This document shows, in pieces, positions 33,028-62,499 of a DNA stretch of 64,000 nt. Origin of the DNA: Chrysoperla carnea (lineage: Eukaryota; Arthropoda; Insecta; Neuroptera; Chrysopidae); NCBI RefSeq assembly GCF_905475395.1, contig NC_058337.1, positions 70,762,368-70,826,367 of the forward strand. The letters are read 5' to 3'. Made by a program: the position numbers and the translations under genes. Each line of letters starts with the position of its first letter. Positions within the stretch are counted from its first letter, which is position 1. The notes below the pieces were generated by a model. The model saw nothing but the letters and a program-made list of their open reading frames with translations, was not told the origin of the DNA and did no database searches.

Positions 33028-33162
33028 ATGTCTGCAATGGCAGAATTAAAACGTTCAGATTTTAGTAAGATATGTCGAACATGTTTATTACAAAAAGACA
33101 ATATGGAACCCATTTATAAATCAGATATACCGAAAATGTTGCTGTCGTTCACAAATATTAAG
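33028..33162 (+). CDS. Shared first exon: N-terminal half of a ZAD domain
   Basis: This exon has 45 codons, ATG to the AAG/GTAAAT donor, ending at phase 0. It reads MSAMAELKRSDFSKICRTCL and continues through MEPIY and IPKMLLSFTNIK. C16 and C19 are the first zinc-binding pair of a ZAD. The normal second Cys pair, about 40 residues further on, is absent, and the frame stops soon after the donor, so the exon cannot encode a whole ZAD by itself. Any of the nine downstream exons supplies the missing pair in frame. The ATG is preceded by AAGCAA, an acceptable insect start context, and a second ATG lies three codons later. Confidence 0.87.
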
Positions 33163-36100
33163 GTAAATGGAATTTTTATTTTTTTTTAACGATTTTGTTA
33201 GTCATTTGTACATTTCTTCATCAATTTTTACAAATATGTACAAAGTATGTAGCTTCTATATCTCTAATCCGTAAAATTATTTTTCAAATGATTTCCATCG
33301 GCTATGAGCGCTTTTATATGTTAGAAACAAATGCTTGAAATGTATGAAAGAATTAACAAAGTTCACAAATTAGGTCTTATTGTAGTATCCTGGTTAAGTA
33401 GAGCATCAAGTGAAATTGTTGAATAAATTTTGAAAATTATAATTGTTTACACTACATTTTCTAAATTGTTATTTGTATTTAAAAAGGATATTCTGCTCAA
33501 TCACGTATCCAGCGTGTGCTTAGCGTTTATCGTAAAACTTAGGTCCCATTTTAGCTAAACGCAATATGCCATCACAATAAATCGCAGGATCCTTATTTTT
33601 TTAGGAACAGTATTCAATACTGTATAGTTCTACCAAGTTCAATACTATAGACTTGGTCAAGTAAAAAGCGCTCTTCCTCCGCTCTCAAGTCAATGTAAAA
33701 GATAGATCTGTATTGCTGTGATTATGAGTGAAAAATTCTTTCACAGAACCGCTATAAACAAAAGCTTCTCTTGACCAAAATGATAGTTACGAAATACAAA
33801 TCTGCGATTGACATTTGAGTTTTATAGGTTTTATAAAATCTTGGATTTCGTAGTAAACTATAATTTACAACGTCAAAAGTCATACTCTAAATTTGAAAAC
33901 TCTCTAAAACGTTTAACAAATAACACCCACTAAATAATATTCAAAGAAAGGATCATAAAACATTTAAATATTTTGTAAAAAATTTTATATTTTCAATAAT
34001 TATACGAGCTCTAAGAATTCTAAAATTCGTAAGTTTAAAATAAAGAAATAATTATATTGATGCTCTACAACTATATTGTTGATGCCCTGCTTAAACCTGA
34101 AAAATAGTATAAGTAAATTAAAAAAGATAAGAAATTAAGAAGGGCAGTAAGTATTTCTAACATATTTTTCTTCGTAAATTTATTTGTTGTGTAATTATTT
34201 ATTTTTGAAAAAAATCATTTTTCATTTAAAAAAATCGTTTAAAATGTTTACAAAAATAAATTGTGCGAAATGACCCTTGCAAAAATTAGCGAAAATGTTT
34301 TAAGTGTTAATTTATTTTCATTATGAATTAAATAGAAATGAAATCGTATTTATTAAGATAAAGACCAAAGATTATCAAGACTTATATATTAAAATAATAC
34401 AATTTACATAACTCGAAGGCCTTAGATATCAGGAAATATTAATTTAATAATAATAAAGTATGAAAAATTAATCGATAGAAATTTTGGATGTTTCATCGTA
34501 AGAAATCCCCTTTTCTTAAGGAACGGGGGCTATTTTTATATTTCCTTAGAGTTGTTTCGTAATTAGATGGGTTTTAAAATTTGTTGACTATCGTTTTTAT
34601 CGTAGCGGGTTTTGGCATACTGAATCGGGCTATTTTAACAAAAAATGAAATGGCAGAATACAGATCTGCCTTTTTCAATACTTAAAATAGAGATAGTTCA
34701 TAATGCAAAATTGTATGCGGTCGTAGGTGTTACAGGTGTTTCGAACAAAATTTAATTTTGCTTTTTTATTAAATTTTTTTTACTATAAGTTTTAAAATTC
34801 GAAAGAAATTTCTCAGCTTCGAACATGGGTAATTTTTTTAACCCCAAGAGCATTATGTGAAAGAATTATCTCTATTTTGAGTATTTAAAAGGAAAGAGAC
34901 TGTATATTGTCACCCCAATTTATCTGTAAAAATCACGCGGTCCATATGATTAGTGTCGGTTTTTAACTGTAATTTTTGTAAATAGTGAATTGTGCTCAAA
35001 AATGCAAGGAATTTGATTTTCATAATATTTGGCTTTACATATTTGTTGAGTATGTTTCAATACATTTAATCAAAAGTATTTACAACATCTACTCTAAGAA
35101 TTACCGAAAAATTCTTTGAAATGAACAAGAAAATACAGAAATTGTAAGGTTGTTTGAACAAAGAAAGCAAAAAAAAATATTCATCTAATGGACGTTTCTT
35201 CTAAAACAAAAAATATTCATTGAATGGACGTTTGTTTATATATATCTGAATCACCGAACATGTCTAGAAAAATCCTAAATTAATATTTCCTTATCCAGAT
35301 ATGCTGTGATTCTGACCAGAAAGACTTCAATTTAGAAGTCAAGTTCTTTTAATAGTACATGGTATTTACTTTTACGGATTTCAATTAAATCCAAACAATA
35401 TGAAACTTTTATCACACATTTTTTCCAAAACTGAATAGATTCAGAACCAATTAAATACAAAATTGTATCTAATTATTTATTTATTCGTTTTTTGCAAAAA
35501 CTAATTAATTTTCACAATAAAAATAAACTTTGTAACGTATTAAAGTTTTTCTCTAGCTCTTACTATTATCAGAAAATGCTAGGAAAAATATCTATTCTAA
35601 ATACCAGATCTTAATTACATGTGGAATTTTGCATAAAATTCTGCCGAATGTGTTCAGTTATTGAAAAATATGCTCATAATAAAAATTTTACGTATTTTTT
35701 CGTTTATAATTAGAATATGCAATAAAAAATACTGCGCTCGCCTTAATAAAATTTCGGTCTAAATCGTCCACCGGAATCAGAATTGAAAAAGTCACCATTC
35801 GATTTTAAAATAAGATATTTCTTCAGTTTTTTAATAGATTATGTGATATAAGAGGTATGGAATACCCTAAATACTAATTGTCCCATTTTAAGGAATCCAG
35901 TGGTACAGTTAACAAGCTAGGGTGCATCTGAAAAGTAGGGAAACAGCATTGATTTTAATGGAACTTTTTGTAATGTGTCTATAGGACCCTAAGAAACATT
36001 TAGCCAACTTAACCTATTTCGAAAAGAGCATAGAGCCCCATCGGGAGGTATGTTTTCGAAATTTTTTTGAAATGCTTTTTTTGTGTTAAAATTGTCATCT

Positions 36101-37311
36101 ATCAGGTGTCTTTGGTCGCAGAATACGAATCCGATGTCGAATTTCACAGATTCTGCCCCGCCTTCCAAAAATCGTGCAATTTTTTGTCAAAAATTTTACT
36201 TTTGTAGCACAAAAGCGGCGAACTAAGTATTTAAGTATTCGCTAATTACGTATCCGATGTAAGATTGTGTCATGCGGTGTGTCAAGATTGTGTCACGCCT
36301 TCAAATAATAGCGCCATTTTTGCCAGTAACTAAAAATTAAATATTTTTTCTGAACATATCCTCTGGAAACTACTAATACTTGATATAGTTGTGTAAATGA
36401 AAATTTATTATTTCCAATGCATTATTTAATATTTGTTTGTGACAAAAAATATGGTGTGTTTTTTTGTGCCGATTTTGTTCTCCAAAAAAGTGAAATTTTT
36501 GGCAAAAAATGGCACAATATTTGTAATAAGTAACAGAATTCGTCATACATATGCCCCCGCTGGGGCCTTATGCCTCTCTTTGGCTAGGCAAAGTTCAATG
36601 TTCCTCGGGGTCCTATAAACACGTTAAAAAAAGTTTCATTAAAATCGGTGTTGTTTGCCAACTTTTCCACTATGGACACTTTTTCCGGCTTATTATCTGT
36701 ATTACAACTGAACATTTCTACAACGAAGGGTTATTGGAAAAAATTACCCGTAATTAAAAGTTCTACTCAAAGGCGGTTAACTTATAGAGAGCTTTAATTT
36801 GATATTAACCTACAAGATGGTTTAAAAAACAACTCTTGCTCAGAGCTGATAAGAAATAGAGGAAAATTTTATATAATTATTCTTTATAAAATAACCAAAA
36901 ACGTGTGTAAGACTTTTACGTAAACCTAATAAATTAGACGAGAATCAAATGCAAAAGTTTATATTTGTTTTTATACTTTTGATTTCTACTGAACCTGATC
37001 AATTAAAAAAAATATTTTCAACAAGAGTTCTCCTACCTCTCATCAGTTTTGAACATGAGTTTAATTTTAAACGTCATTTGCTACCAAAGGTCAAATTCAT
37101 GGTCTTACAAATTAAGTCATTTCTTCCACAAACCTCTTCGTTGAAGAAAAATGAGTAAAATAAGTAAATTTTTTCGAAAGTTAAACTTGAACGAAACTTT
37201 ATATACATCTTATCCTTATCATCTCTTGTAAAATCGATACGAAAATTATTCGCGTTTTTTGATGTGAAAAAACTATGGATACATCTGTACGTTTGGTTTC
37301 TGTACAAACAG
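33163..37311 (+). other. Intron between the shared ZAD exon and unit U1
   Basis: This is 4.1 kb without any zinc-finger remnant that I can see. A foldback element lies at about 35925-36690. Otherwise it is AT-rich with scattered short open frames and no recognisable domain. Confidence 0.6.
35925..36690. repeat. Foldback element
   Basis: The left arm near 35935-36030 (TTGATTTTAATGGAACTTTT, then TATAGGACCCTAAG) is matched in inverse near 36595-36670 (GGGGTCCTATAAACACG, then TTCATTAAAATCGGTGTTG). The pairing is imperfect but extends inward over about 300 bases per arm. The open frames at 36433-36757 fall within it. Confidence 0.65.
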
Positions 37312-38175
37312 GTGCACCCTGAAGATGAACTGTATCCCAAGTTAATATGTACGGAATGTGCAGACCAAGTGTACAGATGTTACATATTCAAGGAACAGTG
37401 TGAAGCAAATCAACAATTACTTGAAAATTTAAAGAGTGGTTTAAACGATATCGATTATTTCGATTCAGCACCAGCTAGTCCAATACTAAAGCAGATGTTA
37501 ACAAAAACATCACCAGAAAGTTGTCAACCCGAAGAAATTCAAGATCATGATTATTTTAATGAAACTGATATCAATTTTAACTGTAAACAGTGTGGAAAAA
37601 CGTTTAGCCGGAAAGATTATTTAAAAAAACATTTAAAACGGCACACAACGAAAAATATTATCAAACAGAAAACAAATTGTCCAATTTGTAGCAAAGCTGT
37701 GATCAATGTGAAATTTCATATGAAAATGAATCACGCGGAACATAAACCATTCAAATGCGAAGAATGCGATGAAAGTTTTCCATTAAATTGTGTATTAGAA
37801 CGTCATATACGATTTCATCATCGTGGAGAGAAACGTAAAAAAATTGAACGACTTTGCACACTCTGCGGTAAAACTGTGTATTCCAGTACAGCATTGGTGT
37901 ATCATATGCGTGTTCATGCGGGTGAACATCCATTTATGTGTGACATTTGTTCAAAACGTTTTAATTCAGCGGAACATTTAAAAGTGCATAAACGTACACA
38001 TACTGGTGAAAAACCATACGCATGCGTTGTATGTAATAAATGTTTTGTTACAAGCAATGTGTTGAAAAAACATATGCGTACTCATACGGGGGAACGACCT
38101 TATGTGTGTCAAATATGTAATAAAGCATTTACTCAAAGTGGGGTGCTTAAAACACATATGAAAATTCATTCATAG
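37312..38175 (+). CDS. ZAD zinc-finger terminal exon U1 (second half-ZAD, 7 C2H2 fingers)
   Basis: The exon starts after ACAAACAG at 37311 in phase 0 and encodes 287 aa, or 332 aa with the shared exon. It opens VHPEDELYPKLICTEC, the second ZAD Cys pair, then the ZAD helix CYIFKEQCEANQQLL. A 55-residue linker leads to seven C2H2 fingers. Finger 2 is short (NCPICSKAV, then HMKMNH). Finger 4 has the LCTLCGK signature shared by most units. The last three fingers are joined by TGEKPY/TGERPY linkers typical of DNA-binding arrays. The stop follows the final finger by one residue. Open frame extends upstream to 37264, but the acceptor and the junction shared with the other units set the start. As a nuclear factor it would bind DNA through fingers 3-7; no target can be read from sequence. 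Confidence 0.88.
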   Translation: MHPEDELYPKLICTECADQVYRCYIFKEQCEANQQLLENLKSGLNDIDYFDSAPASPILKQMLTKTSPESCQPEEIQDHDYFNETDINFNCKQCGKTFSRKDYLKKHLKRHTTKNIIKQKTNCPICSKAVINVKFHMKMNHAEHKPFKCEECDESFPLNCVLERHIRFHHRGEKRKKIERLCTLCGKTVYSSTALVYHMRVHAGEHPFMCDICSKRFNSAEHLKVHKRTHTGEKPYACVVCNKCFVTSNVLKKHMRTHTGERPYVCQICNKAFTQSGVLKTHMKIHS

Positions 38176-39197
38176 TAAAGGGTTAAATATATCTGACTAG
38201 GTCCAATTAATAATTTTCTTTAATATAAATTGTTCAATTTCGTTAAGTCGAAAATATTTATTCACGATCTCTGATTCGGAGCAGATCAAATGAAAAGTTT
38301 TTCTACAATTTTCTGAATTCGTATGCTAAATCTAGCACATTTATAGATTGTAAAATGGGCGACACGTTTTGAAATGAGTCTTTTCTTATGTTTTATGTAT
38401 GTATGTTACTAACAAGAATTTATGATTACGTAAAGACAGTTGAAATATACAATATTGCCTGTCGAAGTCCTTAAAAATATCCAAAACCATTTTTAAGGTT
38501 CCACATTAAAATATAGTTACCAATCATGGGACTTTTTAATTTGAACTAAATTTAAATTTGATTGTTTAAGAGTTATAACAATACTTTTGATGTTTAATTA
38601 TTCAATTTGATAGAACTGAAATACCTATTACGCAGAATTGCAGAATTTTAAAACAGCCATCGTTAGTCTGAAAGACGGTTATACAGTGGGTATGTGAGTG
38701 TTCCTTCGGACCACTCCCACATAAAATGAAAGTTTATTGTTAAGCCATTAGCGTAAAACATCAAAATTAGACGAATCGGAAATAATTGCTTCAAAAGTTT
38801 TTATTGTTTTAACGAATTTATTTGTAGCCTAGCATAACTATCCTAGGTTTCCTCTCTCGGTGGGGTTGTGCTAAAGTGGAAGGTAGTGAAAATGTACTTG
38901 GAATTTTACGGTTATATCTTCTAAAGGACTCACAATATCGAAAATTGGTCATTATAATAGTGTTAGAACAACAAATTCTGCACTAAACACCCATTTTTCG
39001 GATCATTCGTTCCCATGCTACTGCACATCAAAGTTTTATTAATTGATCAAAGTGTGAAAATTTTATTAAATTGACTAATTGATCAAAGTACGAAAAATCT
39101 TTTTAGGTAAGACTACAGATACTCTAAATTTCTTTTATATACAATTTTCAAAAAAATATAAATTTTATCAATGAAACAAAAAAAATCAAAAATAATG

Positions 39198-39540
39198 GAC
39201 TCAAATTTCGAAGTCTGTCCCAATTTCCTAGATTAATTTTTGTATTATATAAATCCGTATTTCGACTACTAAGTAGTCATCATCGGTATGAATTAGCTAA
39301 TCGTAATTACTCTTATTGTGTATGTTACTCGTTGCTAATTTGGTAACGGCCTGATGCAGTCTGCCACCAAATTAACGACGAGTAACATATACTCTAAGAG
39401 CAATTACGATTAGCTAATTCATACTGATAATGGCTACTTGGTAGTCGAAATACGTATTTATATAATACAAAAATTGATCTAGGAAATTGGGGCAAAAATC
39501 GAAGTTTTTTCGAAATATCCTAGAGATCTCATTTATTATC
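39198..39540. repeat. Palindromic repeat family (PAL), intact copy
   Basis: The arms at about 39198-39323 and 39398-39530 are near-perfect inverted copies (CCCAATTTCCTAGAT against ATCTAGGAAATTGGGG, ATTAGCTAATCGTAATTACT against its complement), around a 75-base centre. Related sequence occurs at about 49616-50286 and, as a half copy, at about 8235-8360. Confidence 0.8.
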
Positions 39541-39841
39541 TTTTGATAATATTTATAATAATGTTAAAAATCAATATTAAATCATTTGTTAAAAATCAAT
39601 ATTGTAAAATAATAAAATATATCAAATTTTTTTCATATTTTTACAAATTGCTATTTTTGGCATTTTTTTAAAAATCGCCTATCATTCCAAATCGAGTAAA
39701 AAAGTATGAATTACACCCATGTAATGTTTGTATATTAATGTACTTGTATTAATTTGTACTTGTTAAATGGTATTTATTGAACAGACACTTTTTTAAATTA
39801 TCTGTCATCCCTAAACTTGTAAACAATTTATTAATTAATCA

Positions 39842-40816: not shown

Positions 40817-41908
40817 GTGGAGACTGGTGATAAAACCTTACCCCAACTAATATGCATCGAATGCTTCTCAACTGTACATAAATGCTTCGAATTTATTGAG
40901 AAATGTGCGCAAAACGAAGAAATTTTAATCAATATATTATCGACTGATGAAATAATAATAACATCAGATGATAAATTTTACGAATCATCTTCATCAGAAT
41001 CGCTTGATAACATGATCATAGACACCATTTCAAGTAACGTTAAGGAGACAGAAGTTATGTGGAATTGTCTACAATGTAGTAAAACATTTAAAGAAAAGAA
41101 AACATTACAAAGGCATTCTAAAATACATGATAAAAAGCGTAAAGCATTTGAATGTACTGTATGCAGCTCAACATTTTTACATGTTTCATCTTTAAAAAAA
41201 CATTTGCAAAGTATACATGACACAAATCGTCAATCAAAAACGTGTAAAATATGTAATAAATCGATATTAACATCATTAAAACGCCACATGGAAACGCATG
41301 ACGAAAATCGTAAAACATTTCAATGTTTACGATGTGATCAAACATTTTTACATTCGTCTACATTAAAAACTCACGTTCAACAAATACACGGTACTAAAAA
41401 GTTACGAGAAAAATGTCCTTCATGTGAGAAAACTGTTAGTAATTTAAAAAACCATATAAAATTTAATCATACCAAACATAAATTTCAATGTTTGCAATGT
41501 GATCGAACATTTGCATTTAATGCAACATTAAAACAACATGTACAAACATTTCATCAACGTACTGCTAAACGTAAAGAAGAAAATGTTTTGTGTACATTAT
41601 GTGGGAAAGATTTTAAAACTAATAGTGGATATAAATATCATATGCGCACGCATGTTAATGATAAACCATTTAAATGTCGGTATTGTGATAAAACATTTTG
41701 TTCAAGTGGGTCTAGGACGTGCCACGAACGACAACATACCGATGAACGGCCGTATTCGTGTATGTATTGTGTTAAACGGTTTCGTTCGAAAAATGTTTTG
41801 TTAAGCCATACACGTATACACACGGGTGAGAGACCGTTTGTTTGTAAAATTTGTCAACGTGCCTTTACACAAAAATTTGCTTTAAATACACATATGAAAA
41901 TTCATTAG
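40817..41908 (+). CDS. ZAD zinc-finger terminal exon U2 (second half-ZAD, 10 C2H2 fingers)
   Basis: The exon follows the acceptor AACGCAG at 40816, phase 0, and encodes 363 aa (408 aa with the shared exon). It opens VETGDKTLPQLICIEC with the second ZAD Cys pair, then CFEFIEKCAQNEEIL. A Ser/Asp-rich linker precedes ten fingers. Fingers 3 and 5 are of the short type (TCKICNKSILTSLKRH and KCPSCEKTVSNLKNH). Finger 7 carries LCTLCGK. The terminal finger reads FVCKICQRAFTQ, and the stop is directly after its last His. Its longer array relative to U1 and U3 looks like duplication of the finger and short-finger pair (fingers 2-3 against 4-5). Codon use is as AT-rich as in its neighbours. Confidence 0.88.
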   Translation: METGDKTLPQLICIECFSTVHKCFEFIEKCAQNEEILINILSTDEIIITSDDKFYESSSSESLDNMIIDTISSNVKETEVMWNCLQCSKTFKEKKTLQRHSKIHDKKRKAFECTVCSSTFLHVSSLKKHLQSIHDTNRQSKTCKICNKSILTSLKRHMETHDENRKTFQCLRCDQTFLHSSTLKTHVQQIHGTKKLREKCPSCEKTVSNLKNHIKFNHTKHKFQCLQCDRTFAFNATLKQHVQTFHQRTAKRKEENVLCTLCGKDFKTNSGYKYHMRTHVNDKPFKCRYCDKTFCSSGSRTCHERQHTDERPYSCMYCVKRFRSKNVLLSHTRIHTGERPFVCKICQRAFTQKFALNTHMKIH

Positions 41909-43348: not shown

Positions 43349-44281
43349 GTTGACTCAGATGATGCCCTTCCTAAATTAGTATGCTCCGATTGTTTTGGTA
43401 AAATATGTGAATGTTATGCATTTAAAACTCAATGCGAAATAAATGAAGAAAATCTAACAAAATGTTTAACAAGTACATCTTCACCCAAACCTGATGACGA
43501 TGTCAAGAAATTAATTATTAAATGCGAAGAAATTGATAAAGTAGGATCACCAGGTCTTTCCGTCAAGGAAGATGACGACATCGACGAGCATAAATCATTA
43601 CCGTTAACCTCAGAAGAAGATGAAGAAAGTGAAACAGAGAATATAGTTAAAGTAAAGAAATTAAGATGTAAAAAAGATATTTCAGATTCTTGTACATACT
43701 GTAACAAGAAATTTGTAGATCAATATGTCCTAAAACGACATATCGAAAATATGCACACAAAAATACGTAAAAAAGAAACATGTTCAATATGCCAACGAAC
43801 CGTAATGTGTATGAAACTGCACTTGCGTCGAAAACATAACGGCGAACATAAATACAAATGTCGATTATGCGAGGAAAAATTTTTGTATAAATCAAATTTA
43901 ACTGAGCATATACGAGTTAAGCATGATACGGATAAGCAACATATGAAAAAAGAACGTTTATTGTGTACATATTGCGGAAATTTCTTACATTCTCGGAAGG
44001 CTTATGGATATCACATGTTGTCACATAAAGGGGAAAAACCATTTCAATGTAGCTTTTGTATAAAGAAATTTAGATCACATAATTATTTAAAAATACATGA
44101 AAGGTCTCATACGGATGAAAGACCTTATCCATGTACGTATTGTGATAGAGCATTTCGAGATAATAGTACGTTAAAAGGACATATAAGGACACATACGGGA
44201 GAAAAGCCCTTTATATGTCCTATATGTAATCGAGGGTTTGCACAACGGATAGCAATGAAAACACATTTAAAAATACATTAA
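43349..44281 (+). CDS. ZAD zinc-finger terminal exon U3 (second half-ZAD, 7 C2H2 fingers)
   Basis: The acceptor is GTCTTAG at 43348, phase 0, giving 310 aa (355 aa with the shared exon). It opens VDSDDALPKLVCSDC and then CYAFKTQCEINEENL. The frame is open from this acceptor but has no in-frame ATG until 43751, inside the finger array, so it cannot be a stand-alone gene that begins with the ZAD half. A long acidic and Ser-rich linker separates it from seven fingers. Finger 2 is the short type (TCSICQRTVMCMKLH). Finger 4 has LCTYCGN, a variant of LCTLCGK with a shifted hydrophobic pattern (FLHSRKAYGYH). The last fingers use KGEKPF, TDERPY and TGEKPF linkers and end HLKIH just before the stop. 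Confidence 0.88.
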   Translation, partial: VDSDDALPKLVCSDCFGKICECYAFKTQCEINEENLTKCLTSTSSPKPDDDVKKLIIKCEEIDKVGSPGLSVKEDDDIDEHKSLPLTSEEDEESETENIVKVKKLRCKKDISDSCTYCNKKFVDQYVLKRHIENMHTKIRKKETCSICQRTVMCMKLHLRRKHNGEHKYKCRLCEEKFLYKSNLTEHIRVKHDTDKQHMKKERLLCTYCGNFLHSRKAYGYHMLSHKGEKPFQCSFCIKKFRSHNYLKIHERSHTDERPYPCTYCDRAFRDNSTLKGHIRTHTGEKPFICPICNRGFAQRIAMKTHLKIH

Positions 44282-46312: not shown

Positions 46313-47281
46313 GTTGATACTGACGACGATTTACCTAAATTAATATGTATCGAATGTGTAAAGCATGTTCAACATTGTTATGAATTCAAAAATAATTGTC
46401 TAACAAACGAAGAAAAATTAAATCAAATTTTAACAAACGATGAAGATGTTATTAAACAAGAAATATCAGTCGATCCAGCCACCATTTTTGTTAAAAATGA
46501 ATTTCATGATTACAGTGATAATTTAGCATCATCAGATGAATCAGACAATGTGGTAGAACCACCTGAAATTAAACAAGAAATAGTATTAAATAATAAAACT
46601 TCAAAATATCAATGCACAGACTGTGACAGAACGTTCGCTTCAAAGTATAATTTAATACGACATACACGTATGCGACATAATAATATTGTAAGCTTATTCA
46701 AATGTGCTCAATGCGACCAACAATTTAAACATAAAGAATCTTTACAACGGCATACAAAAAAGAAACATGAACTAAAGAAGGAGCTATGTAAAATCTGTAA
46801 CAAATATTACAATTATTTATCAAGTCATGTCAAATTAAAGCATAGTACAGATTTAAAGTATTCATGTACTGAGTGTCCAGAAAGATTTTCATTGAAAAAT
46901 ATCTTGAATAAACATATATTATCGAAACATAAAGGAATTAAATTTGGTCGGGTGGATAAACTGTGTACACTTTGTGGAAAAGTGTTACATTCACAAATCG
47001 GATTAGATCGACACATTCGTTCACATTCGGATATACGTTTGTATCAGTGTACGTATTGTAATAAAAAATTTAAAACTGGTGAATATTTAAAGAAACATGA
47101 AAGATTGCATACAAATGAAAGGCCATTTGTTTGTTCATATTGTAGTAAAACATTTCGAACTCGTGAAGTTATGTTAATACATATTCGAATACATACAGGA
47201 GATAAACCGTATAAGTGTCTCGTGTGTGAGAAAGCATTTACACAGAAACAGCAATTAAAGGCGCACATGAAAAGTCATTGA
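46313..47281 (+). CDS. ZAD zinc-finger terminal exon U4 (second half-ZAD, 8 C2H2 fingers)
   Basis: The acceptor is TACGCAG at 46312, phase 0, giving 322 aa (367 aa with the shared exon). It opens VDTDDDLPKLICIEC and then CYEFKNNCLTNEEKL. An acidic linker (SSDESDNVVEPPE) precedes eight fingers. Finger 3 is the short type (LCKICNKYYNYLSSH). Finger 5 carries LCTLCGKVLHS. The final finger is YKCLVCEKAFTQ, and the stop follows its last residue. An in-frame ATG at 46289 lies in the intron before the acceptor, so the start is set by the splice junction. An AATAAA at 47367-47372, 86 bases after the stop, is the clearest poly(A) signal of the array and supports a terminal exon. Confidence 0.89.
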   Translation, partial: VDTDDDLPKLICIECVKHVQHCYEFKNNCLTNEEKLNQILTNDEDVIKQEISVDPATIFVKNEFHDYSDNLASSDESDNVVEPPEIKQEIVLNNKTSKYQCTDCDRTFASKYNLIRHTRMRHNNIVSLFKCAQCDQQFKHKESLQRHTKKKHELKKELCKICNKYYNYLSSHVKLKHSTDLKYSCTECPERFSLKNILNKHILSKHKGIKFGRVDKLCTLCGKVLHSQIGLDRHIRSHSDIRLYQCTYCNKKFKTGEYLKKHERLHTNERPFVCSYCSKTFRTREVMLIHIRIHTGDKPYKCLVCEKAFTQKQQLKAHMKSH

Positions 47282-48472: not shown

Positions 48473-49486
48473 GTTGACCAAGAAGACGATCTTCCTAAAT
48501 TGATATGTTCGAGTTGCGCAGATAATTTAAATTCATGTTATCAGTTCAAAGTGCAATGTGAGGCAAACGATCAAATACTACAATCATTGCTGATAATTGA
48601 TGAGGATGATAATTTTCAATACGATAATACTGATATACCATTTAAATGTGTTTATAAAAGTGAACCTGATGAATTAAAAAAGGAAACTGAAGATGTAAAA
48701 CCAAAATATTTACGTAAACGACGTAAAAAAATAAAAATAAAAAAAGAATCATCTGATGGCAAACCGACTACTACTTACCCTGAAGAAGAATTAGAAAATC
48801 ATACAGAATGCGATATTTGCGGAAAGTATATATCGCATGCAGGTAATTATCGATCACATCGAAGCGCTCATTTTAAAAATGTTAAATACACTTGTGACAT
48901 ATGTAACGCAGATTTTAAATCAATTGGATCTATGAAAAAGCATAAAATTTATGCCCATAGTTCACGTCAAAAAGAAGCATGCAGTTTATGTGGCCGATCA
49001 TTTTATCACTTATATGCTCATATGAAAATGAAACATAATGATGAAAATTTAAAATTTCATTGTACTGAATCTGAAGATTGTAAAGCTCGATTTCCATATA
49101 AAAGTGTTCTAGAAGCACATATTTTAAAGAAACATAAGGGAAAAATATTATCAAGGATTCATAAATTGTGTACTCTTTGTGGAAAAGTGCTACAGTCAGA
49201 GAAAGGTTACAAATATCATATGTTACATCATTCGAATGAAAAACCATTTTACTGTACACACTGTAATGCTAATTTTCGATCACAAGCTATTCTAAAACGA
49301 CATGAACGTCAACATACGGATGAAAGACCATATCCGTGCACATTCTGTGAGAAAGCATTTCGTACGAAAAATGTTTTGATGGGACATATTAGAATACATA
49401 CAGGGGAAAAACCGTTTGTATGTAAAATATGTAATAAAGCATTTCGACAAAAAGTTACACTTAATACTCATATGAAAGTACATTAA
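48473..49486 (+). CDS. ZAD zinc-finger terminal exon U5 (second half-ZAD, 8 fingers, one with wide Cys spacing)
   Basis: The acceptor is AAACGCAG at 48472, phase 0, giving 337 aa (382 aa with the shared exon). It opens VDQEDDLPKLICSSC and then CYQFKVQCEANDQIL. A basic stretch (KYLRKRRKKIKIKKES), a possible nuclear localisation signal, follows in the linker. There are eight fingers. Finger 3 is the short type (ACSLCGRSFYHLYAH). Finger 4 reads FHCTESEDCKARF, with five residues between the Cys instead of two, yet keeps both His. Finger 5 carries LCTLCGKVLQS. The last is FVCKICNKAFRQ, with the stop directly after HMKVH. Confidence 0.88.
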   Translation, partial: VDQEDDLPKLICSSCADNLNSCYQFKVQCEANDQILQSLLIIDEDDNFQYDNTDIPFKCVYKSEPDELKKETEDVKPKYLRKRRKKIKIKKESSDGKPTTTYPEEELENHTECDICGKYISHAGNYRSHRSAHFKNVKYTCDICNADFKSIGSMKKHKIYAHSSRQKEACSLCGRSFYHLYAHMKMKHNDENLKFHCTESEDCKARFPYKSVLEAHILKKHKGKILSRIHKLCTLCGKVLQSEKGYKYHMLHHSNEKPFYCTHCNANFRSQAILKRHERQHTDERPYPCTFCEKAFRTKNVLMGHIRIHTGEKPFVCKICNKAFRQKVTLNTHMKVH

Positions 49487-49615: not shown

Positions 49616-50286
49616 TTCGATTTTTCCCCAATTTCCTACATCAATTTTATATTATTCGTTGTGTGCGTAGTCATGGTAGGGATAATAAAATCGATGCCAG
49701 CGCTTTAAGTGAAAAATTTTGGAGATAAAGTGGGCTGTTATGACTAATTTGCAATTATTTACATGTTAATGATATAGAAACTGTCAAATTAAAATGATTG
49801 AAAAACACTAATTAATTAAACTTAATGCATTAAAAATTGTGAAAATAAGAAATCAAATTGTACAAATATTATTTTTCAAATGTTAATTATCGTAATTATT
49901 TATTTAAATTTGTGAAACAAGAATATTAAATTTTAAATGTAAGTTTTCAATGCAATCCACACAATTATATATGCATCCATTAATTCTATAATTAAAGTAG
50001 TGTATCGTTGTCATGGAAACGAAATTCACGCTCGGAGCGAATACAAATATGTATTTCGACTACCATGTAGTCATCATCAGTATGAATTAGCTAATCGTAA
50101 TTACTCTTACAAATTATTACAAATTAACGAGTAATACACTATTTTTAAAAGTAATTACAATTAGCAAATTCATAGTTGGTAGTCGAAATACGTATTTATA
50201 TCATACCTAAAAAATTGATCTAGGAGGTTGAGGAAGAATCAAAATTTAATTCGACATATCCTAGAGTTCTCTACTATCTTTTATAA
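49616..50286. repeat. PAL palindromic element interrupted by an M1 MITE
   Basis: CCCCAATTTCCTACATCAAT at about 49625 is the left end of a PAL copy. Its continuation (GTATTTCGACTACCATGTAG) resumes at about 50052, after the MITE. The right arm ends with ATTGATCTAGGAGG near 50213. Confidence 0.72.
49657..50044 (-). mobile_element. MITE family M1, copy 2 (inverted, nested in PAL)
   Basis: The inverted copy runs from TTCGTTGTGTGCGTAGTCAT to CACGCTCGGAGCGAA and carries GTAGTGTATCGTTGTCATGG. It sits within the left arm of a PAL element. Confidence 0.78.
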
Positions 50287-50884
50287 TCCTTAAATAACTT
50301 TCTATTTATTTTAATTCAGATCAATAGGTAGACTTCATTCAAGGTATAGTTTTAATGAGTTCAATTTTGACATGCTATTCAGAATTTATAAAATTTAAAA
50401 AAATCCGATTTTCCGATATACTACTACCGTCGAATTGTCGATACAATCTTAAAAAGGAATTTATTATTATAGCTTGTTAATGTTTTTTTCTATCTTTTAA
50501 AAATGTTTATTTTATTAAAAATTTATACATAAGCATTTGTAAAAATAAATGGTTTAATTTTGAAAATAATTACTGTTTTATTTTTCTCGATAATTGCAAT
50601 TAAATTTTAATTGATACTAAAATAGTAGTTTGTGTATTTAGTTCAAAGCCATACATTCCAAATTTCATGAGTATGAAATTTGATCTATTCATCTACAATA
50701 AAAGAAAGTAAACTTTCTCCCTCTTACAGTTATTTGTTTCATGGCCGGTAAATATTTAAAATTTCAGCTAGGGTTTCTGGCGTCAAAACGCTATTTAGAC
50801 GCCTTTTGAGAAAAAATAGCATGTGCATTTCGTAAGAAATGCACATTCCTGGCCATCATCCATAGGAGTTTGAACTATTTTTAT

Positions 50885-52212: not shown

Positions 52213-52334
52213 ATAATGGTAAAGATACAAAATGATGAGAAACTTTTTAATAGATTTACTGTAAAATTTTATTTGATATTTATCTTTGGAGAACAAAACA
52301 TCTGCTGACAACCTTTTTTTAAATCTTTGAATAG

Positions 52335-53369
52335 GTAAATTCAACTGACCAAGAAATTGATTTTGATGAAATGCCAAAATTAATATGCAACGAATGTGTA
52401 GAGCAAATTAAACAAATTTATTCATTTAAAAATCAATGTGAAATGAACGAAGTAATTCTCCAAAAAATTTTATCAACAACAGAAAAATTAATTGATGATT
52501 CAGATGAATTTTTTATCGTAGAGCAAGAGTCAATTGATATAAAACATAACGATGATGAATATACCAACGTTGAATATTTAGAAGAAGACATACCTGAAGA
52601 AAATCATCTTAAATGCGCAGATTGTGGTAAATCTTTTAAAAAAGATATATATTTAAAACGGCATCAATTACGTCATAATGTCACCAAAGATAGAGAAAAT
52701 GTTTACGCCTGCACAGAATGTGATAAAATTTATACAAACGAACTGTATTTAAAACGTCATAGATCACATCATAAAACTGTATTAACATGTACAGAGTGTC
52801 ATATGATATTTGAGTCACAAACATTATATAAACGTCATATACAAGAAGTACATAATGGGAAAAAACCACGTGATATTTGTACAGAGTGTAACAAAATGGT
52901 TACAAATTTAACAGAGCATATTAAGTTTTATCATACAAATGCATTACCATACGAATGTACAGAATGTAACAAGAAATTCCCATATAAAAGTACACTGGAT
53001 CAACATATTGAATATCGACATCGTGGTAAAAAAAAATCAGTGAAAAAATTATGTAATTTATGTGGTAAACAAGTATTTTCGAACAAAGCACTTAAGTATC
53101 ATATGTTATCACATACAGGGGAAAAACCATTTGAATGTAATGTATGCGGCAAGAAATTTAAGTCGAATAGTCATAAAATTGTACATGAAATGAACCACAC
53201 AGGTGTCCGACCACATGTGTGTATATACTGTCATAAAGGTTTTAAAACTACATCAATGTTAAAATGTCATTTACGCACTCATACGGGAGAATGTCCATAT
53301 GTTTGTGAAATTTGCCAACGAGCGTTTAATCAACCGAGTTCGTTACGGACTCATATGAAAATTCATTGA
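52335..53369 (+). CDS. ZAD zinc-finger terminal exon U6 (second half-ZAD, 9 C2H2 fingers)
   Basis: The acceptor is TGAATAG at 52334, phase 0, giving 344 aa (389 aa with the shared exon). It opens VNSTDQEIDFDEMPKLICNE, a slightly longer lead before the second ZAD Cys pair, then YSFKNQCEMNEVIL. The DEMPKLIC string is shared with U7 and U8. Nine fingers follow. Finger 4 is the short type (ICTECNKMVTNLTEH). Finger 6 carries LCNLCGK. The last finger is YVCEICQRAFNQ, and the stop is directly after HMKIH. An in-frame ATG occurs at the Met of DEMPK (52371), but starting there would discard the lead that every unit shares, and would leave only half a ZAD. Confidence 0.88.
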   Translation, partial: VNSTDQEIDFDEMPKLICNECVEQIKQIYSFKNQCEMNEVILQKILSTTEKLIDDSDEFFIVEQESIDIKHNDDEYTNVEYLEEDIPEENHLKCADCGKSFKKDIYLKRHQLRHNVTKDRENVYACTECDKIYTNELYLKRHRSHHKTVLTCTECHMIFESQTLYKRHIQEVHNGKKPRDICTECNKMVTNLTEHIKFYHTNALPYECTECNKKFPYKSTLDQHIEYRHRGKKKSVKKLCNLCGKQVFSNKALKYHMLSHTGEKPFECNVCGKKFKSNSHKIVHEMNHTGVRPHVCIYCHKGFKTTSMLKCHLRTHTGECPYVCEICQRAFNQPSSLRTHMKIH

Positions 53370-54713: not shown

Positions 54714-54749
54714 TTGAAAGTATTGGTGGCTGCTGCACTATCATCATCT

Positions 54750-55346: not shown

Positions 55347-56906
55347 GTGGAGTGCGACGTTGATGAAATGCCAAAATTAATTTGCCAAGAATGTATAACC
55401 CAAATCACTAATACATGTTATTTTCGTGAAACATGCGAAAAAAATACTTCCATATTGTTAAAATTAGTAACAAATTCCACGTTAGAGAACGATGTTAGGA
55501 ATCAAACACCTGCAGAGGAACCTGCGATAGAGAATATTATTAAAAATCAAACACCCGCAGAAGAATTTACGATAAAGAATGACATTAAGAATGAAGGACG
55601 TAGGGAAGAAGAATCCATAGATACATTTGGTAATTATACTGACCTAAGAGATGCGCCTATCTATAAATGTGAATACTGTTCCCGAACATATGTCGAAAAA
55701 AAATATTTAAATCGACATGTTAAAACACACGGTCGTGGCTACAATTGTTCATGTAAAAATGTCCCACCTATAGAAATATGGGAAGATTACCTTGATGATA
55801 ATGAGATGAGTAATAAACGTAGAGTTATTTACCAATGTCCAAAATGCGATAAAACCTACAGTGAGAAAAAATATGTAAATCGACATTTAAAATCACATAA
55901 ATGTTTTTGCGACGCACCTAGTAACTTTATGGTAACTGTACTTGACGAAACAAAATGTTCGTGTAAGTCTGTTCCTGCTATAGAAATATGGGATGACTAT
56001 TTTGATGGTGATGAAGATGATAAACGTAAAGTAATTTATCAGTGTCCAAGGTGTGATAAGTCCTATAGTGAGAGAAGATATGTCAATCGTCATTTAAAAT
56101 CTCATAAATGCGTTTGTAATGAAAGTGGTAACTATACGGTAATCGAGATTGATAAAACAAAATTAATAGAGGACAAAAACAGTATTTTGGATCCCGAAAT
56201 AATAATTCAAAATGATACAAAAGTGTTTCAATGTCCGATTTGTAAACGGATTTACAAAGAGCGTAAATTTTATAATCGTCATTTTCGAACCACTCATTCG
56301 AATATATTAACTCAATACCCTTGTACTCAATGTGATCAGGTGTTTAAATTAGCTTCATCGTTGAAACGGCATGTACAAACTATTCATGAAAAGTTCAAAC
56401 AGGTCTGCACAATCTGTGGAAAATTAGTCATACACTTACGTTTACATATACGAGAAACACACAGCGATTCCGAACGGCCGTATAAATGTTCACTTTGTAA
56501 TAGTCGTTTTACGGTACCCAGTAAAATGCGCCAACATATACGTGAAAAACATATGGGCTTACGTTCTTATAAATTATGTTCCGTCTGTGGGAAAAAATGC
56601 CACTCGTTTTGTGCTCTTGAAATACATATGAGATCACATACGGGGGAGAAACCATTTGATTGTTCAGATTGTGGGAAAAAATTTCGAAATAAGCAACATT
56701 TACGTGATCATAAGTTAATCCACACAGGTCAACGACCTTATATATGTACGTTTTGTAAAAAAGGTTTTAAAACGGCTTATGCATTGAAGGGGCATGTTCG
56801 AATCCACACAGGTGAATGTCCATATGAATGTTCCGTATGTCAGCGGGCGTTTATACAAAAAAGTAGCCTTAATTCTCACATGAAAACACATTCTAATAAC
56901 ACTTAG
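55347..56906 (+). CDS. ZAD zinc-finger terminal exon U7 (second half-ZAD, 11 C2H2 fingers, internal duplication)
   Basis: The acceptor is TTCTGCAG at 55346, phase 0. At 519 aa (564 aa with the shared exon) it is the largest unit. It opens VECDVDEMPKLICQEC and then CYFRETCEKNTSILL. The linker has repeated QTPAEE and IKN motifs. Eleven fingers follow; fingers 2 and 3 belong to an exact 70-residue tandem duplication (55746-55955 and 55956-56165). Each copy also holds a CSCK...IEIW(E/D)DY stretch. Finger 6 is the short type (VCTICGKLVIHLRLH). Finger 8 carries LCSVCGK. The last finger is YECSVCQRAFIQ, followed by six residues and the stop. It is the closest relative of U8 over most of its length. 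Confidence 0.89.
   Translation: MECDVDEMPKLICQECITQITNTCYFRETCEKNTSILLKLVTNSTLENDVRNQTPAEEPAIENIIKNQTPAEEFTIKNDIKNEGRREEESIDTFGNYTDLRDAPIYKCEYCSRTYVEKKYLNRHVKTHGRGYNCSCKNVPPIEIWEDYLDDNEMSNKRRVIYQCPKCDKTYSEKKYVNRHLKSHKCFCDAPSNFMVTVLDETKCSCKSVPAIEIWDDYFDGDEDDKRKVIYQCPRCDKSYSERRYVNRHLKSHKCVCNESGNYTVIEIDKTKLIEDKNSILDPEIIIQNDTKVFQCPICKRIYKERKFYNRHFRTTHSNILTQYPCTQCDQVFKLASSLKRHVQTIHEKFKQVCTICGKLVIHLRLHIRETHSDSERPYKCSLCNSRFTVPSKMRQHIREKHMGLRSYKLCSVCGKKCHSFCALEIHMRSHTGEKPFDCSDCGKKFRNKQHLRDHKLIHTGQRPYICTFCKKGFKTAYALKGHVRIHTGECPYECSVCQRAFIQKSSLNSHMKTHSNNT
55746..56165 (+). repeat. 210-bp in-frame tandem duplication inside U7
   Basis: Two adjacent 210-base units, each 70 codons, encode CSCK(N/S)VP(P/A)IEIW(E/D)DY, then an acidic stretch, then a whole finger (YQCPKCDKTYSEKKYVNRH or YQCPRCDKSYSERRYVNRH) and a C.C tail. 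The reading frame is kept. Confidence 0.85.
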
Positions 56907-59239
56907 TGATTTTATTAAGCCGGAGTGTCAAATTAAGTATACAATTACAGAAAATTAAAAGTTGTATAGCACCATATAAGTAGTAACACCTTACTGAACA
57001 ACACTATATCAAAATATCGACTGCGATCAGATCGTCTTGGTGGGTAATTAACTGAGTAAAATGGTATATATTGGATGGCGTCTCTTAGTACGTGTTACAT
57101 ATGTTCAAAAAGGCATGGATTGTCTGATTTTATTTACAGAAAAGCACGTATTTGTTTTTATAAAGAAGACGAAAAATTTATCTGACAACTATGTCATCAT
57201 CCAAACATCCATTAAAATAGCCTTGTCACAGATGTTTTTACTAAGCGAAAATGATTTATATACTGTTGGAGATATAATGGCAATATGTCAGGAATGACTA
57301 GGTACTCATCCCTATATTCTGCTAAAGAGCTTAAGAGAACAAGTCGGAGATATTTAAATGCCAAAAACAACGTAAAACTCTACCTTGGATTTTTGTAATA
57401 AAACCTTAATTAACAATGACAGTTTGCCCAAAAGTTTATCAAACTTCTGAAATTTCTTATATATTATATGCTTTTTTGTTTTAACCATCTTGTTTTAAAA
57501 TATATTTTTGATAAAAGTGAAATTATTGTAACTAACGAAGCTTGTTGAAACTGATTTGTTGTAAGAAAGATAGCTCAAAATAACAAATTTCTTGGCAAGA
57601 TAGGTTGAATATTTAACTAAATTTAGATAACATCTTTTTGTTTTTGACCAAATCTTAGTACAGTTTAGGATGCTAACACTGCCTGCATGGTGGAAAAACG
57701 TGTAAGGGTTAGTTAAATCTGAATCAGGTCCTGTGTTTGGAAAACAGTGGATAAAATGAAAGCTAATAGTTTAAATTTTTGCAGTAAAGTTATCATTACT
57801 TATTTCTATATGTCTAAATACGTAATATACTCAAAATATAAAACTTAATTGTATCGACATATCTCTTTCTATTATACCGTTATGATTTACTTAATGGATA
57901 ACTTTTTTCTTTCTAATTTTATTTAACGTTGGCATTTATTCAAATTTAGATTATAGTTTGGAAATATTTTCTCATTATATTTTTAATGATAATATCTTTC
58001 AAATGGTGCCCATTGTTTGCTTCGACTTAGCGTGCTCTTTCCAGAGAATTTTCAATAACTTGGCTTAGAATTTCAGGTCCCAACTTTCTTCTCGGGTATT
58101 AGCCTTAAGCTCTTGGATGGTCCATTGACATACACCTTAATTAAATCATAACGTGATGAGTGTCCATTTCTACTACGTATGTTTTAAAGTTTAAAATTTA
58201 AGCTTTACTAAATCTTTGTAAAATTTTTGCTGTTACTATAATAATATGAATTGTTATTATGTATTTTTTTGAAATAATTAAAATAACAAATTTTAATCGA
58301 AATATTTTCAAGTTTACCTTTATTTGTCTTGCTTCTCTTCAAGTTTTGATGATATGTGAAAATATTGAATAAATATATATATGTATATGAAAGAAACAGA
58401 AATTTAAATAAAATATTATTTTCATAATCATTTAATCTTTGAATTATTAAATGCTTTCAATTATTGTCAGCATTGAATATAAATATTTCATGTGTATCAC
58501 AACTCAAATTTCAAATAGGCCTACAGGTTGTTGAAGTAATTCGAAAATAGAAGTTTATTACTCTTAGCACAACGTAAATCATCGATATTTCGCTTAATTG
58601 ATAGTCAATTGGTTGTGAAATAGTTATCGTTTTATTTCTACGAAAATGTTTAATATATTTTTCGTTTATAATATTTAAAATTTCAAATAATTTTCATTTT
58701 AAAATAAGCATTGTTTCCTTTAAATAAATGTTAAAAATTAAAAGTTTTTCTGTTAATTAGTTATCAGAAGTTTAAAAAATTTTGATAAATTTTGATGACG
58801 GAAGGTAAGCTAAATCCGTATTGCAAGTCCCAATTCCCGCAAAAAAAAAAAAAAAAAAAAAACGATGACTTCTTTATAGATGGTAAACTAAAGCCTTCTT
58901 TGAATTAAATTATACAAATTACATCAACGAAAAAATTATTAATATTAATTCAATAATTGAATTACGCGAATATATAATTTCATCCCATATGTTTTCGCAA
59001 TACTCTATATCGCTTACAACCCTAAAGAGTTCTCTAGAGTTTAACATAGATTTCGTGTTCAACAAGTCGGTTAAAAACCTTTTCGTTCAAATATGACAAC
59101 CACTCGAAGAAGATAAAACTTAATGAAGATAATTTACCTAGGAATAAATTCTTGTGATTTGAGGGATGAAAAAATAATTTGAATAAAAGTTATCATATAA
59201 AAAAACAAAGACGTAATTATTGTTGATTTTCTTCTGCAG
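56907..59239 (+). other. Spacer between U7 and U8
   Basis: This is 2.3 kb of AT-rich sequence with a poly-A run at about 58841-58862. The only frames of note, at 57061-57297 and 57075-57185, are discussed under rejected items. No repeat family copy is seen. Confidence 0.6.
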
Positions 59240-60520
59240 GTGGAGGACGATGTTGATGAAATGCCAAAATTAATTTGCGAAGAATGTAAAACACAAATAA
59301 CAAATGTATGTAATTTTCGTGATACATGTGAAAATAATACCGAATTGTTATTAAAAATACTCACAGAATCAACAAAAGTTGAAACGTTCAGTGAAACATC
59401 TGAAGATTTTCATAATGATATTGATGATTTGAAGATAAACGATGATTCAAATTCATCAAATCATAATAACGAAACAAGTCTAGAACCAAAATCTGAAAAT
59501 ACTTACAAATGTGAATATTGTTCTGAAACATGTGCTATAGGGGAAATTTGTGGATGTAAAAAGAAAGAAAGGAAAAAAGAAATAAGAAGAGGGAAAAAGA
59601 AAATTTGTAAGAATTTTCAATGTCCAAAATGTGAAAAAGCATACAGCGATAAATATTATTTGCATAAGCATTTAAAAGAGCATAGAAAAACTGATGATGA
59701 TCCAATTTTAGATGAATTTATTAAAGCAACAGCATCACAAAAAATCAAATCGGAAATATTAAGTCCAGAAATTATAATCAAAGACAATGTAACATTATTT
59801 CAATGTCCCACATGTAAAAGAGTTTACAAACATCGAAAATTCTATAATTCGCATGCACGAATTAATCATACAAGCACAGCACGTCTCTATCCGTGTACAA
59901 GATGTGATCGAGTATTCAAGTTATCTTCGTCACTCAGACGTCATCAAAAGAATACGCACGACAATCAAAAACAAGTTTGTACTGAGTGTGGGAAATCAGT
60001 AATTCACTTAAGTGTTCATATTCGAGAAGTTCATGATCAAATACGACCGCATCATTGTACATATTGTAATCGACGTTTCACAAAACCAAGTATTTTACGA
60101 CAGCATATACGTGAAAAACATATGGGACAAAAATCGTATAAATTATGCTCAGTATGTGGAAAAACAGTACAAACGGCGCAAGCATTACAAGATCATATGC
60201 GTTCACATACCGGAGAAAAACCATTTGAATGCTCGGAATGTGGGAAAAAATTCCGTAGTCAAAAATATTTACATGGGCATATGCTAATACATACTGGTAT
60301 ACGTGCGCATATTTGCTCATATTGTAAAAAAGGTTTTAAAACTAGCACAACATTGAAGCGACATGTTCGTATACATACTGGAGAATGTCCATATGTGTGT
60401 TCAATATGCAAACGAGCGTTTATACAAAAGACAAGCCTTAATTCACATATGAAGACACATTGCAATACCGTTCCGCCACCTGAACATTCTAAAAATGAGT
60501 TAATTAATTTCTTTTGCTAG
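59240..60520 (+). CDS. ZAD zinc-finger terminal exon U8 (second half-ZAD, 9 C2H2 fingers plus one degenerate)
   Basis: The acceptor is TTCTGCAG at 59239, phase 0, giving 426 aa (471 aa with the shared exon). It opens VEDDVDEMPKLICEEC and then CNFRDTCENNTELLL. The first finger position is degenerate: YKCEYCSETCAIGEICGC keeps the Cys pair but has no His pair, and runs into a Lys/Arg-rich stretch (possible nuclear localisation signal). Nine intact fingers follow. The short type is VCTECGKSVIHLSVH. LCSVCGK and a TGEKPF linker come next, then terminal YVCSICKRAFIQ. A 20-residue tail follows the last finger. Its exon start, finger order and even the intron just before the acceptor match U7, so the two are recent tandem copies. 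It lacks U7's internal 70-residue duplication. Confidence 0.89.
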   Translation: MEDDVDEMPKLICEECKTQITNVCNFRDTCENNTELLLKILTESTKVETFSETSEDFHNDIDDLKINDDSNSSNHNNETSLEPKSENTYKCEYCSETCAIGEICGCKKKERKKEIRRGKKKICKNFQCPKCEKAYSDKYYLHKHLKEHRKTDDDPILDEFIKATASQKIKSEILSPEIIIKDNVTLFQCPTCKRVYKHRKFYNSHARINHTSTARLYPCTRCDRVFKLSSSLRRHQKNTHDNQKQVCTECGKSVIHLSVHIREVHDQIRPHHCTYCNRRFTKPSILRQHIREKHMGQKSYKLCSVCGKTVQTAQALQDHMRSHTGEKPFECSECGKKFRSQKYLHGHMLIHTGIRAHICSYCKKGFKTSTTLKRHVRIHTGECPYVCSICKRAFIQKTSLNSHMKTHCNTVPPPEHSKNELINFFC

Positions 60521-61710
60521 AAAATTATATTAGAAAAGAGTTGAAATGGTCTTATGATATTAATTACAATCTTGTATATATTTACATCAGATCTTAAACC
60601 TTTTACAGTACGACTACTAAAATAACGACTTCTTAAATTCTTTTCCAACATGTTACTCTTTTGAAGTTCGGCAACGCAATTTGATGGAAATAAGACACTT
60701 TTGTGGTGGATTTTACCAGATAAATAAATTGGATTGGACTTGATTAATTGGATCATGACATTCAATAGCAGAAAATCTTGTTCGTGTTAAAACCATCACT
60801 CATGTCAATTCTCAATGTTTCTCATTTTTGAGGAAAAGGAATTTAATTTTCTATTTCTTATGCGTAAACATTTTAAACTCTTTAAACAAATACACTTACT
60901 TCTCTTCATGATTTCTCAATCAAACAAAAATTAACAAATAACAATTATATCCCATTTACAAGTAATCGATTTTTTACACTGTCGTTAACGATAAAACATG
61001 AAGCTACTTATTCAATTATTGAATAACTACGTATAAAAAGAGTATGTTTAACAGCTAATATATCATAAACTAAACTGTAGAATTAACTCTTCTTTAAATT
61101 TTTATGTATTACATACACTAAGGAATATTAAATCTTAAACTTAAATAAAAATAAAATTCATAAGTTTTAAATAAAAATTAAACTTTCGTTTTTAGACGCT
61201 TAGAATATATGTACGTATGTTTTGTTAAACAATTTGTTTCTCAAAAATTAAGTCGATGCTAACTTCTGTTTGTTATGTAATGTTTTATAATTATTTCAGT
61301 ATTATTAATATGCTCGAAATTCGGATATTTTTATCTTTTTTTTATGTAAGGATTTTGTTAATAGTTATTACCTACATTTTTTCGTTAATATATAAACAAT
61401 ATAATATTGGCATTCAAATAATAATAGTGGCATTGGGAAAACTACTATTACTTACAATGGGTTACTTAATACTTATAAAGGGCAACCGCTCATTTAATAC
61501 AGTTAGTCGCAAATTACCGATCCATTGTTCAAAAAAATCAGCGACCTTAAATTTCAACAATACACTCACTGTATTTTTTATTTAAAAGATTATGAAATCT
61601 CAATATCCCTATGCAAACAATTAATGGTTAATCAAAATCGTAAACGCCAGTGTAAAAATCGGTAAATTACGAACTCATATAACTAACGATAAAATTAATG
61701 GTATACACAG
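60521..61710 (+). other. Spacer between U8 and U9
   Basis: This is 1.2 kb of AT-rich sequence. An open frame at 61256-61585 is hydrophobic and low-complexity and has no recognisable domain. No half-ZAD exon is seen. Confidence 0.6.
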
Positions 61711-62499
61711 GTCTTTGAAGATGATCAGTATCCTCAAAACATATGTCTCGAATGTTCATATGAAATCGAAAATATTTGTGCATTTCAACAAAAATGCATA
61801 GCGAATTGCAATAAACTCGAAACCGTATTAAATGAATACAATGAACATAATTCAAAATTAATTGTATCATTAAAAATAGAAAAAGATGAAATTATCATCA
61901 AAGATGAATTTGCTTCCGATCATATTGAGTCTGATAATGATACATCATCAACCACATCTAGCGAAGAGAAGCAAAAATCAATCAATAACAAAAACAACAA
62001 ATATTTCTGTACCAAATGCAACAAAACATTCCGACTTGAACGCAATTATATTAAACATTTACAAATGCATAAAAGATGCATCGAATGTTGTAAATATTTT
62101 CAGTCACAAACTGTATTAGAACAACATAAACGTGAAAAACATAATGGTGAAAAATTATTTGTAAAAGTGTGTACGATATGTGGAAAACAATGTTATTCCA
62201 CTACATCATTTTTATATCATATGAGATCACATAACGATGAAAATCCGTATAAATGTAATATTTGCAATAAGGAATTTAAGATTATTAGCCATTTAAATGC
62301 ACATCGACAATCTCATGGTGGTTTTAAAGCACATATTTGTAGAAATTGTAATAAATCGTTTACGACCAGTTATTCTTTAAAAATTCACATGTTAATACAT
62401 ACAGGTGAACGTCCGTTTTGTTGTCATGTATGCAATAAAACGTTTACGCAAAATAGCACATTAAAAACACATATGAAAGTGCATAAACTTGCATCATAA
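61711..62499 (+). CDS. ZAD zinc-finger terminal exon U9 (second half-ZAD, 6 C2H2 fingers)
   Basis: The acceptor is TACACAG at 61710, phase 0. At 262 aa (307 aa with the shared exon) it is the smallest unit. It opens VFEDDQYPQNICLEC and then CAFQQKCIANCNKLE, the most diverged ZAD half of the set: NICLEC replaces the usual KLICxEC. A Ser/Thr-rich acidic linker precedes six fingers. The second, RCIECCKYFQSQTVLEQH, directly follows the first without a normal linker. The third carries VCTICGK in place of LCTLCGK. The short finger present in the other eight units is missing. The last is FCCHVCNKTFTQ, with three residues before the stop. It is the last unit before the right edge; 1.5 kb beyond it shows no tenth unit. 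Confidence 0.86.
   Translation, partial: VFEDDQYPQNICLECSYEIENICAFQQKCIANCNKLETVLNEYNEHNSKLIVSLKIEKDEIIIKDEFASDHIESDNDTSSTTSSEEKQKSINNKNNKYFCTKCNKTFRLERNYIKHLQMHKRCIECCKYFQSQTVLEQHKREKHNGEKLFVKVCTICGKQCYSTTSFLYHMRSHNDENPYKCNICNKEFKIISHLNAHRQSHGGFKAHICRNCNKSFTTSYSLKIHMLIHTGERPFCCHVCNKTFTQNSTLKTHMKVHKLAS

Follow-up and report, generated by a model that had tools for sequence, protein, structure and literature searches.

The locus considered here raises the question of how twelve zinc-finger exons, each opening with the second half of a ZAD domain, can be used when one exon with the first half of that domain accompanies them all. The locus lies in Chrysoperla carnea, in a stretch of 64,000 nucleotides (the window; 70762368-70826367 of contig 1 in a 559 Mb assembly), and was followed through the 30 kb past the window end (stretches L009-L011, base 1 of L009 being 64001 in continued window numbering). 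The window is AT-rich (28.8% G+C), and there are no sequence gaps in it or in the fetched continuation. The arrangement of frames and splice sites makes it very probable that this is a single ZAD zinc-finger gene in which one exon, E1, begins the coding sequence and twelve others, U1-U12, serve as alternative endings, the whole extending over 40.8 kb of one strand.

The exon E1 starts with an ATG at 33028, preceded upstream by an in-frame stop, reads MSAMAELKRSDFSKICRTCLLQKDNMEPIYKSDIPKMLLSFTNIK and ends in AAG at 33162, directly before its donor. Its 45 codons amount to half of a ZAD. The zf-AD model, the only one in Pfam that E1 matches at E values up to 1, gives this exon by itself 15.8 bits; the BTB domain that characterizes the common part of lola and mod(mdg4) was not found at that level. 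A profile built from 44 first halves of other loci gives E1 40.5 bits.

The terminal exons are equally regular. In the window, the acceptors of U1-U9 each follow an AG in frame 0, and the exons stay open for 262-519 codons up to the stop; at the base composition of the window, one stop-free frame of 262 codons would be expected by chance with a probability of about 1.5e-10. Phase 0 is found at 12/12 acceptors, compatible in frame with the donor of E1, as at a lola/mod(mdg4)-type locus, and every exon (12/12) carries an array of 6-10 C2H2 fingers, as in ZAD-ZNF proteins, preceded by the second cysteine pair, the helix residues next to it and a linker. Furthermore, both second-half cysteines are kept in all twelve units and all twelve frames are intact. 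Immediately before five of the twelve exons (U3, U6 and U10-U12) the TAG of the acceptor is an in-frame stop, so entry by readthrough is impossible there and translation needs splicing. The gaps between units measure 1.2-4.9 kb. Averaged over the 66 unit pairs, the half-ZAD is 41% identical and the fingers 44%, as against 17% for the linker. Among the nine window units the finger contact residues, taken at the canonical positions, vary, while the last finger is similar. The original prediction had described E1, with the first cysteine pair and a phase-0 donor, and nine exons opening with the second pair, and all of this was recovered, its ten coordinates being exact to the base. The count of nine holds for the window; the locus as a whole has at least twelve, three of them past the window end.

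Table 1. Exons of the ZAD zinc-finger locus in window coordinates, continued beyond 64000 for U10-U12.
Exon	Position	Strand	Features	C2H2 fingers	zf-AD score joined to E1 (bits)
E1 (shared exon)	33028-33162	+	start codon; ZAD first half (Cys pair 1, CRTC); phase-0 donor GTAAAT		
U1	37312-38175	+	ZAD second half; stop	6	47.2
U2	40817-41908	+	ZAD second half; stop	8	45.3
U3	43349-44281	+	ZAD second half; stop; in-frame TAG is the acceptor AG	6	43.9
U4	46313-47281	+	ZAD second half; stop	7	58.7
U5	48473-49486	+	ZAD second half; stop	6	56.6
U6	52335-53369	+	ZAD second half; stop; in-frame TAG is the acceptor AG	8	49.5
U7	55347-56906	+	ZAD second half; stop	10	43.5
U8	59240-60520	+	ZAD second half; stop	8	47.5
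U9	61711-62499	+	ZAD second half; stop	6	38.8
U10	64784-65653 (L009:784-1653)	+		6	55.0
U11	67098-67967 (L009:3098-3967)	+		6	38.1
U12	72908-73804 (L009:8908-9804)	+		6	42.2

Conceptual joining of E1 to each unit, which presupposes the predicted splice, gives a ZAD in 12/12 cases, with 38.1-58.7 bits against zf-AD (PF07776), above the Pfam cut-off of 28, while three second halves tested alone reach 20.7-37.8 bits. The joined E1-U4 peptide also matches the solved chain 7pok_A across both halves (E 4.8e-8). The ZAD has been described, in the review PMC5509000, as a globule built round a zinc bound by both cysteine pairs, with a long second helix as a stem, forming an antiparallel dimer. Read from that account together with the order of the domain, the dimer helix would follow the second cysteine pair and thus lie in the variable exon.

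The primary transcript would begin upstream of E1, whose single donor would be spliced to one acceptor out of twelve, cleavage and polyadenylation following the chosen exon. Each join would complete one ZAD, the two halves of which are on separate exons, so the domain would fold only in the spliced product. As the dimer helix would follow the second cysteine pair, exon choice may change the DNA target and the dimer surface together. The choice of terminal exon is probably made in cis. That the same joining of E1 to many endings proceeds instead by trans-splicing of separate 3´ transcripts, each terminal exon having its own promoter, overlaps with this explanation and appears rather unlikely, the remaining probability falling to a mixture of both. 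Trans-splicing is known at mod(mdg4) in Diptera and Lepidoptera, and in Anopheles gambiae, according to PMC4667647, donor and acceptor exons lie on one strand, which also weakens strand order as evidence for cis; moreover, the 1.2-4.9 kb intervals at our locus leave room for promoters. Against it, all twelve units lie downstream of E1 on the same strand, whereas mod(mdg4) of several species (PMC4667647) uses both strands, and U11 and U12 share about 15 bases upstream and no promoter-sized homology; neither point is decisive.

That the locus instead consists of twelve ordinary ZAD genes in tandem, whose own first halves have diverged or are unusual and were missed, is a reading with two precedents. 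Elsewhere in this genome each of the 50 sampled second halves has a private first half, and the cucoid-clade ZAD-ZNF genes of Drosophila arose through tandem gene duplication (PMC9810180). It is nevertheless very improbable, as besides E1 nothing above 7.7 bits occurs in the 94 kb, in comparison with 20.9 bits or more for paired first halves at other loci. That limit comes from a profile search with filters off, in all six frames and including the intervals between units, which detected no further first half. With profiles from other ZAD loci, the 94 kb yielded twelve second halves (21.0-38.1 bits, the next match having 9.1) and a single first half, E1, and no second half was found beyond U12 up to 94000. 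When both strands were scanned for a CxxC with an open frame running from it to a phase-0 donor, the known units being masked on the plus strand, three candidates were left: E1 and two on the minus strand that do not resemble a ZAD. Since a looser donor rule added further candidates, again non-ZAD, more weight belongs to the profile search. Neither did tblastn of E1 find a second first-half exon in the window, and matches of E1 and the nine units to the masked window, which could have indicated decayed or extra units in the gaps, were at chance level (best E 0.43). A genome search with the E1 peptide returned 67 matches, E1 being the only one in the focal region; this search counts little, as it is insensitive to diverged first halves and listed none on C5, where many are present. 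The idea of one shared exon, advanced in the original prediction, therefore held when an upstream CxxC half was sought for each unit: only E1 was found in 94 kb, against 50/50 private halves elsewhere.

The control loci deserve description. Fourteen stretches were picked, non-randomly, where genome searches showed split ZADs; most matches were not fetched, and we do not claim that the focal locus is the sole one of its kind in the genome. Among the eight loci taken from the zf-AD genome search, our annotation covered L001 and L005. Profile training drew on 12 of the fourteen stretches, with 44 first halves and 32 second halves, so that the pairing there is partly in-sample. Pairing was called at 15 bits or more. 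Each of the 50 second halves in the 14 stretches has a private first half on the same strand, 57-2651 bp upstream, and none is shared. This comprises 44/44 in the 12 training stretches and 3/3 in each of the two stretches outside profile building. The first halves of the latter two score 26.9-47.2 bits; in the training stretches, the lowest score of a paired first half is 20.9. The threshold was passed by 48 first halves in the training stretches, four of which have no second half in the fetched DNA. The phase-0 intron inside the ZAD is common among the sampled genes of Chrysoperla carnea, and these have one first-half exon per gene, a feature that does not enter the definition of the ZAD-ZNF family, compared with one for twelve units at the focal locus. 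Adjacent units differ in strand in 7/32 cases in the control clusters and in none of 11 at the focal locus (P about 0.066).

Three side observations concern the wider family. In C5:19808000-19847999 (L012-L015), 11 first-half/second-half pairs, several of them near-identical, lie on both strands; this cluster is a whole-gene expansion, in contrast with the focal locus. Among the matches listed to the second half of U4, 25 lie within 455 kb at C2:96.367-96.822 Mb, 23 of them on the minus strand, and in the 20 kb examined there private first halves were found in 3/3 cases. Genome-wide, at least 150 scored zf-AD matches were obtained from 484 candidates, a very large ZAD family.

The units also carry marks of use. 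As synonymous sites are mostly saturated over all pairs of the nine units, the ratio of nonsynonymous to synonymous change (dN/dS, omega) was taken from the three closest pairs. In the half-ZAD codons, omega is 0.20 for U11-U12, 0.27 for U9-U10 and 0.31 for U7-U8 (Fisher p 0.0019, 0.0020 and 0.019, uncorrected; 41-42 codons each). Over the whole exon it is 0.45, 0.26 and 0.20, respectively, and the linker of U11-U12, with 0.87, is near neutral. The second halves of these three pairs are under purifying selection, though no copy has a first half of its own. This constraint, with the in-frame stops before five exons, indicates that the half-ZADs are translated, in all likelihood as part of a product with a first half; E1 is the sole candidate detected for that. 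That E1 serves only U1, which is the nearest unit, U2-U12 having their own promoters and making proteins without a full ZAD, or decaying, can hardly be sustained: U6-U8 do have a Met five residues before the second cysteine pair and U10 one inside it, but in 8/12 units the first in-frame Met comes at least 39 residues past the first Cys of that pair, so translation begun without splicing would miss the half-domain, and the intact frames, conserved cysteines and purifying selection described above also speak against it.

Regarding the origin of the array, on the one-gene model only the terminal exon would have been duplicated, whereas the other sampled ZAD clusters are made up of complete genes, each having its two exons. 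The homology that blastn finds for U7-U8 and U11-U12 covers the exon and extends no more than 13-32 bases upstream, and for U4-U5 up to 56 bases. The 600-base flanks of U11-U12 and U7-U8 are no more alike than shuffled DNA. In a tree from the second half and the last fingers, the twelve focal rows group together, with support of 77/89; 26 of the 50 outside units were included, and those left out, near relatives among them, were the units with fingers in another open frame, four stretches and the two stretches fetched later. The piece copied or kept would mostly be the terminal exon, U9-U10 being a possible case of a longer one. The exons of U11 and U12 are 79% identical, with a synonymous divergence (dS) of about 0.35, and their homology is bounded by a point about 15 bases upstream of the exon and by the neighbourhood of the stop codon. 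Either gene conversion or copying of the exon alone could account for this.

Several points weigh against the model of one gene with exon-only growth and cis choice. Both the E1-unit junctions and the cis or trans mode are predictions from the DNA sequence. That the twelve units are all on one strand, as cis-splicing requires, lends it weak support. Upstream of the nine window acceptors, no intronic motif is conspicuous: among k-mers present in the 400 upstream bases of at least six of the nine, there were nine 7-mers against 6.7 expected, two 8-mers against 0.36 (p 0.07) and no 9-mers, in a test that covered the upstream side of U1-U9. Candidate poly(A) hexamers were listed for U1-U9. Not every copy seems to be exon-only, given that the 600 bases upstream of U9 and U10 are more similar than all 60 shuffles, although without the last 40 bases one of 60 shuffles is as high. 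Finally, the tree from the second half only, with all 50 outside units and 45 columns, divides the units into U1-U8 and U9-U12 on well supported branches. The twelve came together in 0% of 200 bootstraps in this tree, and a single clade is not rejected by the approximately unbiased (AU) test (p 0.329). In view of this split, the locus may have taken in terminal exons from another ZAD family.

Neighbouring genes in the window are represented by an exon at 1136-2005 (minus strand), whose CRIC and PDZ domains match a connector enhancer of KSR, and by another at 12611-13072 (plus strand), which encodes a GNAT acetyltransferase domain. A dispersed repeat of about 300 bases, at 39247-39561 and 50041-50297, 68% alike, occurs among other short intron repeats and may be old mobile-element DNA. 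Over the whole assembly, TTAGG repeats gave 323 overlapping matches, of which those listed lie scattered along contig 1; they carry no information on the insect order.

Comparison with known systems places the locus. In clustered protocadherins and Dscam, many isoforms likewise come from homologous exon arrays at one locus. Protocadherins vary the first exon, each with its own promoter, and Dscam varies internal exons by means of docking and selector sequences, whereas the focal locus would vary the last exon, and the sequences upstream of the nine window acceptors showed no common intronic motif. The alternative endings of lola carry C2H2 fingers. The original prediction had seen here the design of lola and mod(mdg4) built on ZAD; one 5´ exon with many endings would indeed be shared, but the match is not complete, as the common exon codes for half a domain and the dimerization helix would fall in the variable part. 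The locus would work like lola and mod(mdg4) but stands outside their family, having no BTB and a cut inside the domain: theirs is an entire BTB in the common part, here a 45-codon half-ZAD, the rest of the domain being variable. In addition, most mod(mdg4) endings are FLYWCH and not C2H2 arrays, and mod(mdg4) is trans-spliced, while at the focal locus cis choice is the more probable mode. The likeness, a common 5´ part joined to many alternative zinc-finger 3´ exons, and the growth of the mod(mdg4) array via duplication of 3´ exons are both described in PMC4667647.

The ZAD-ZNF clusters, both that of the Drosophila cucoid clade and the others in Chrysoperla carnea, share the domains and the tandem arrays, and the sampled genes of this genome share the phase-0 intron within the ZAD. 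They differ in that their sampled second halves each have a first-half exon, while E1 serves twelve. According to PMC9810180, the Drosophila clusters consist of separate genes, an intron of one Hermetia gene houses a second gene, and some isoforms of cucoid itself differ at the 3´ end and have a shortened finger array. Among the open-access titles and abstracts listed, no ZAD locus of this kind was found; most subscription papers and the gene databases lay outside that search, and an annotated relative may exist.

We propose, tentatively and with less than even confidence, a split-domain splicing code, in which the half-ZAD of E1 would be a universal plug completing any of twelve half-ZADs, the splice choice would set DNA target and partner, and any exon with a phase-0 acceptor that came to lie downstream of E1 could be added to the set of endings. 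Copying mainly the terminal exon would keep one promoter and one N-terminus, turning a gene family into an isoform family. A zinc site made from one shared and one variable exon would provide chimeras made by nature, with which the half of the ZAD that sets dimer choice could be sought. The locus would also be a non-BTB case of one donor choosing among a dozen distant last exons, and, if the model is true, one gene of this insect could yield a dozen different transcription factors.

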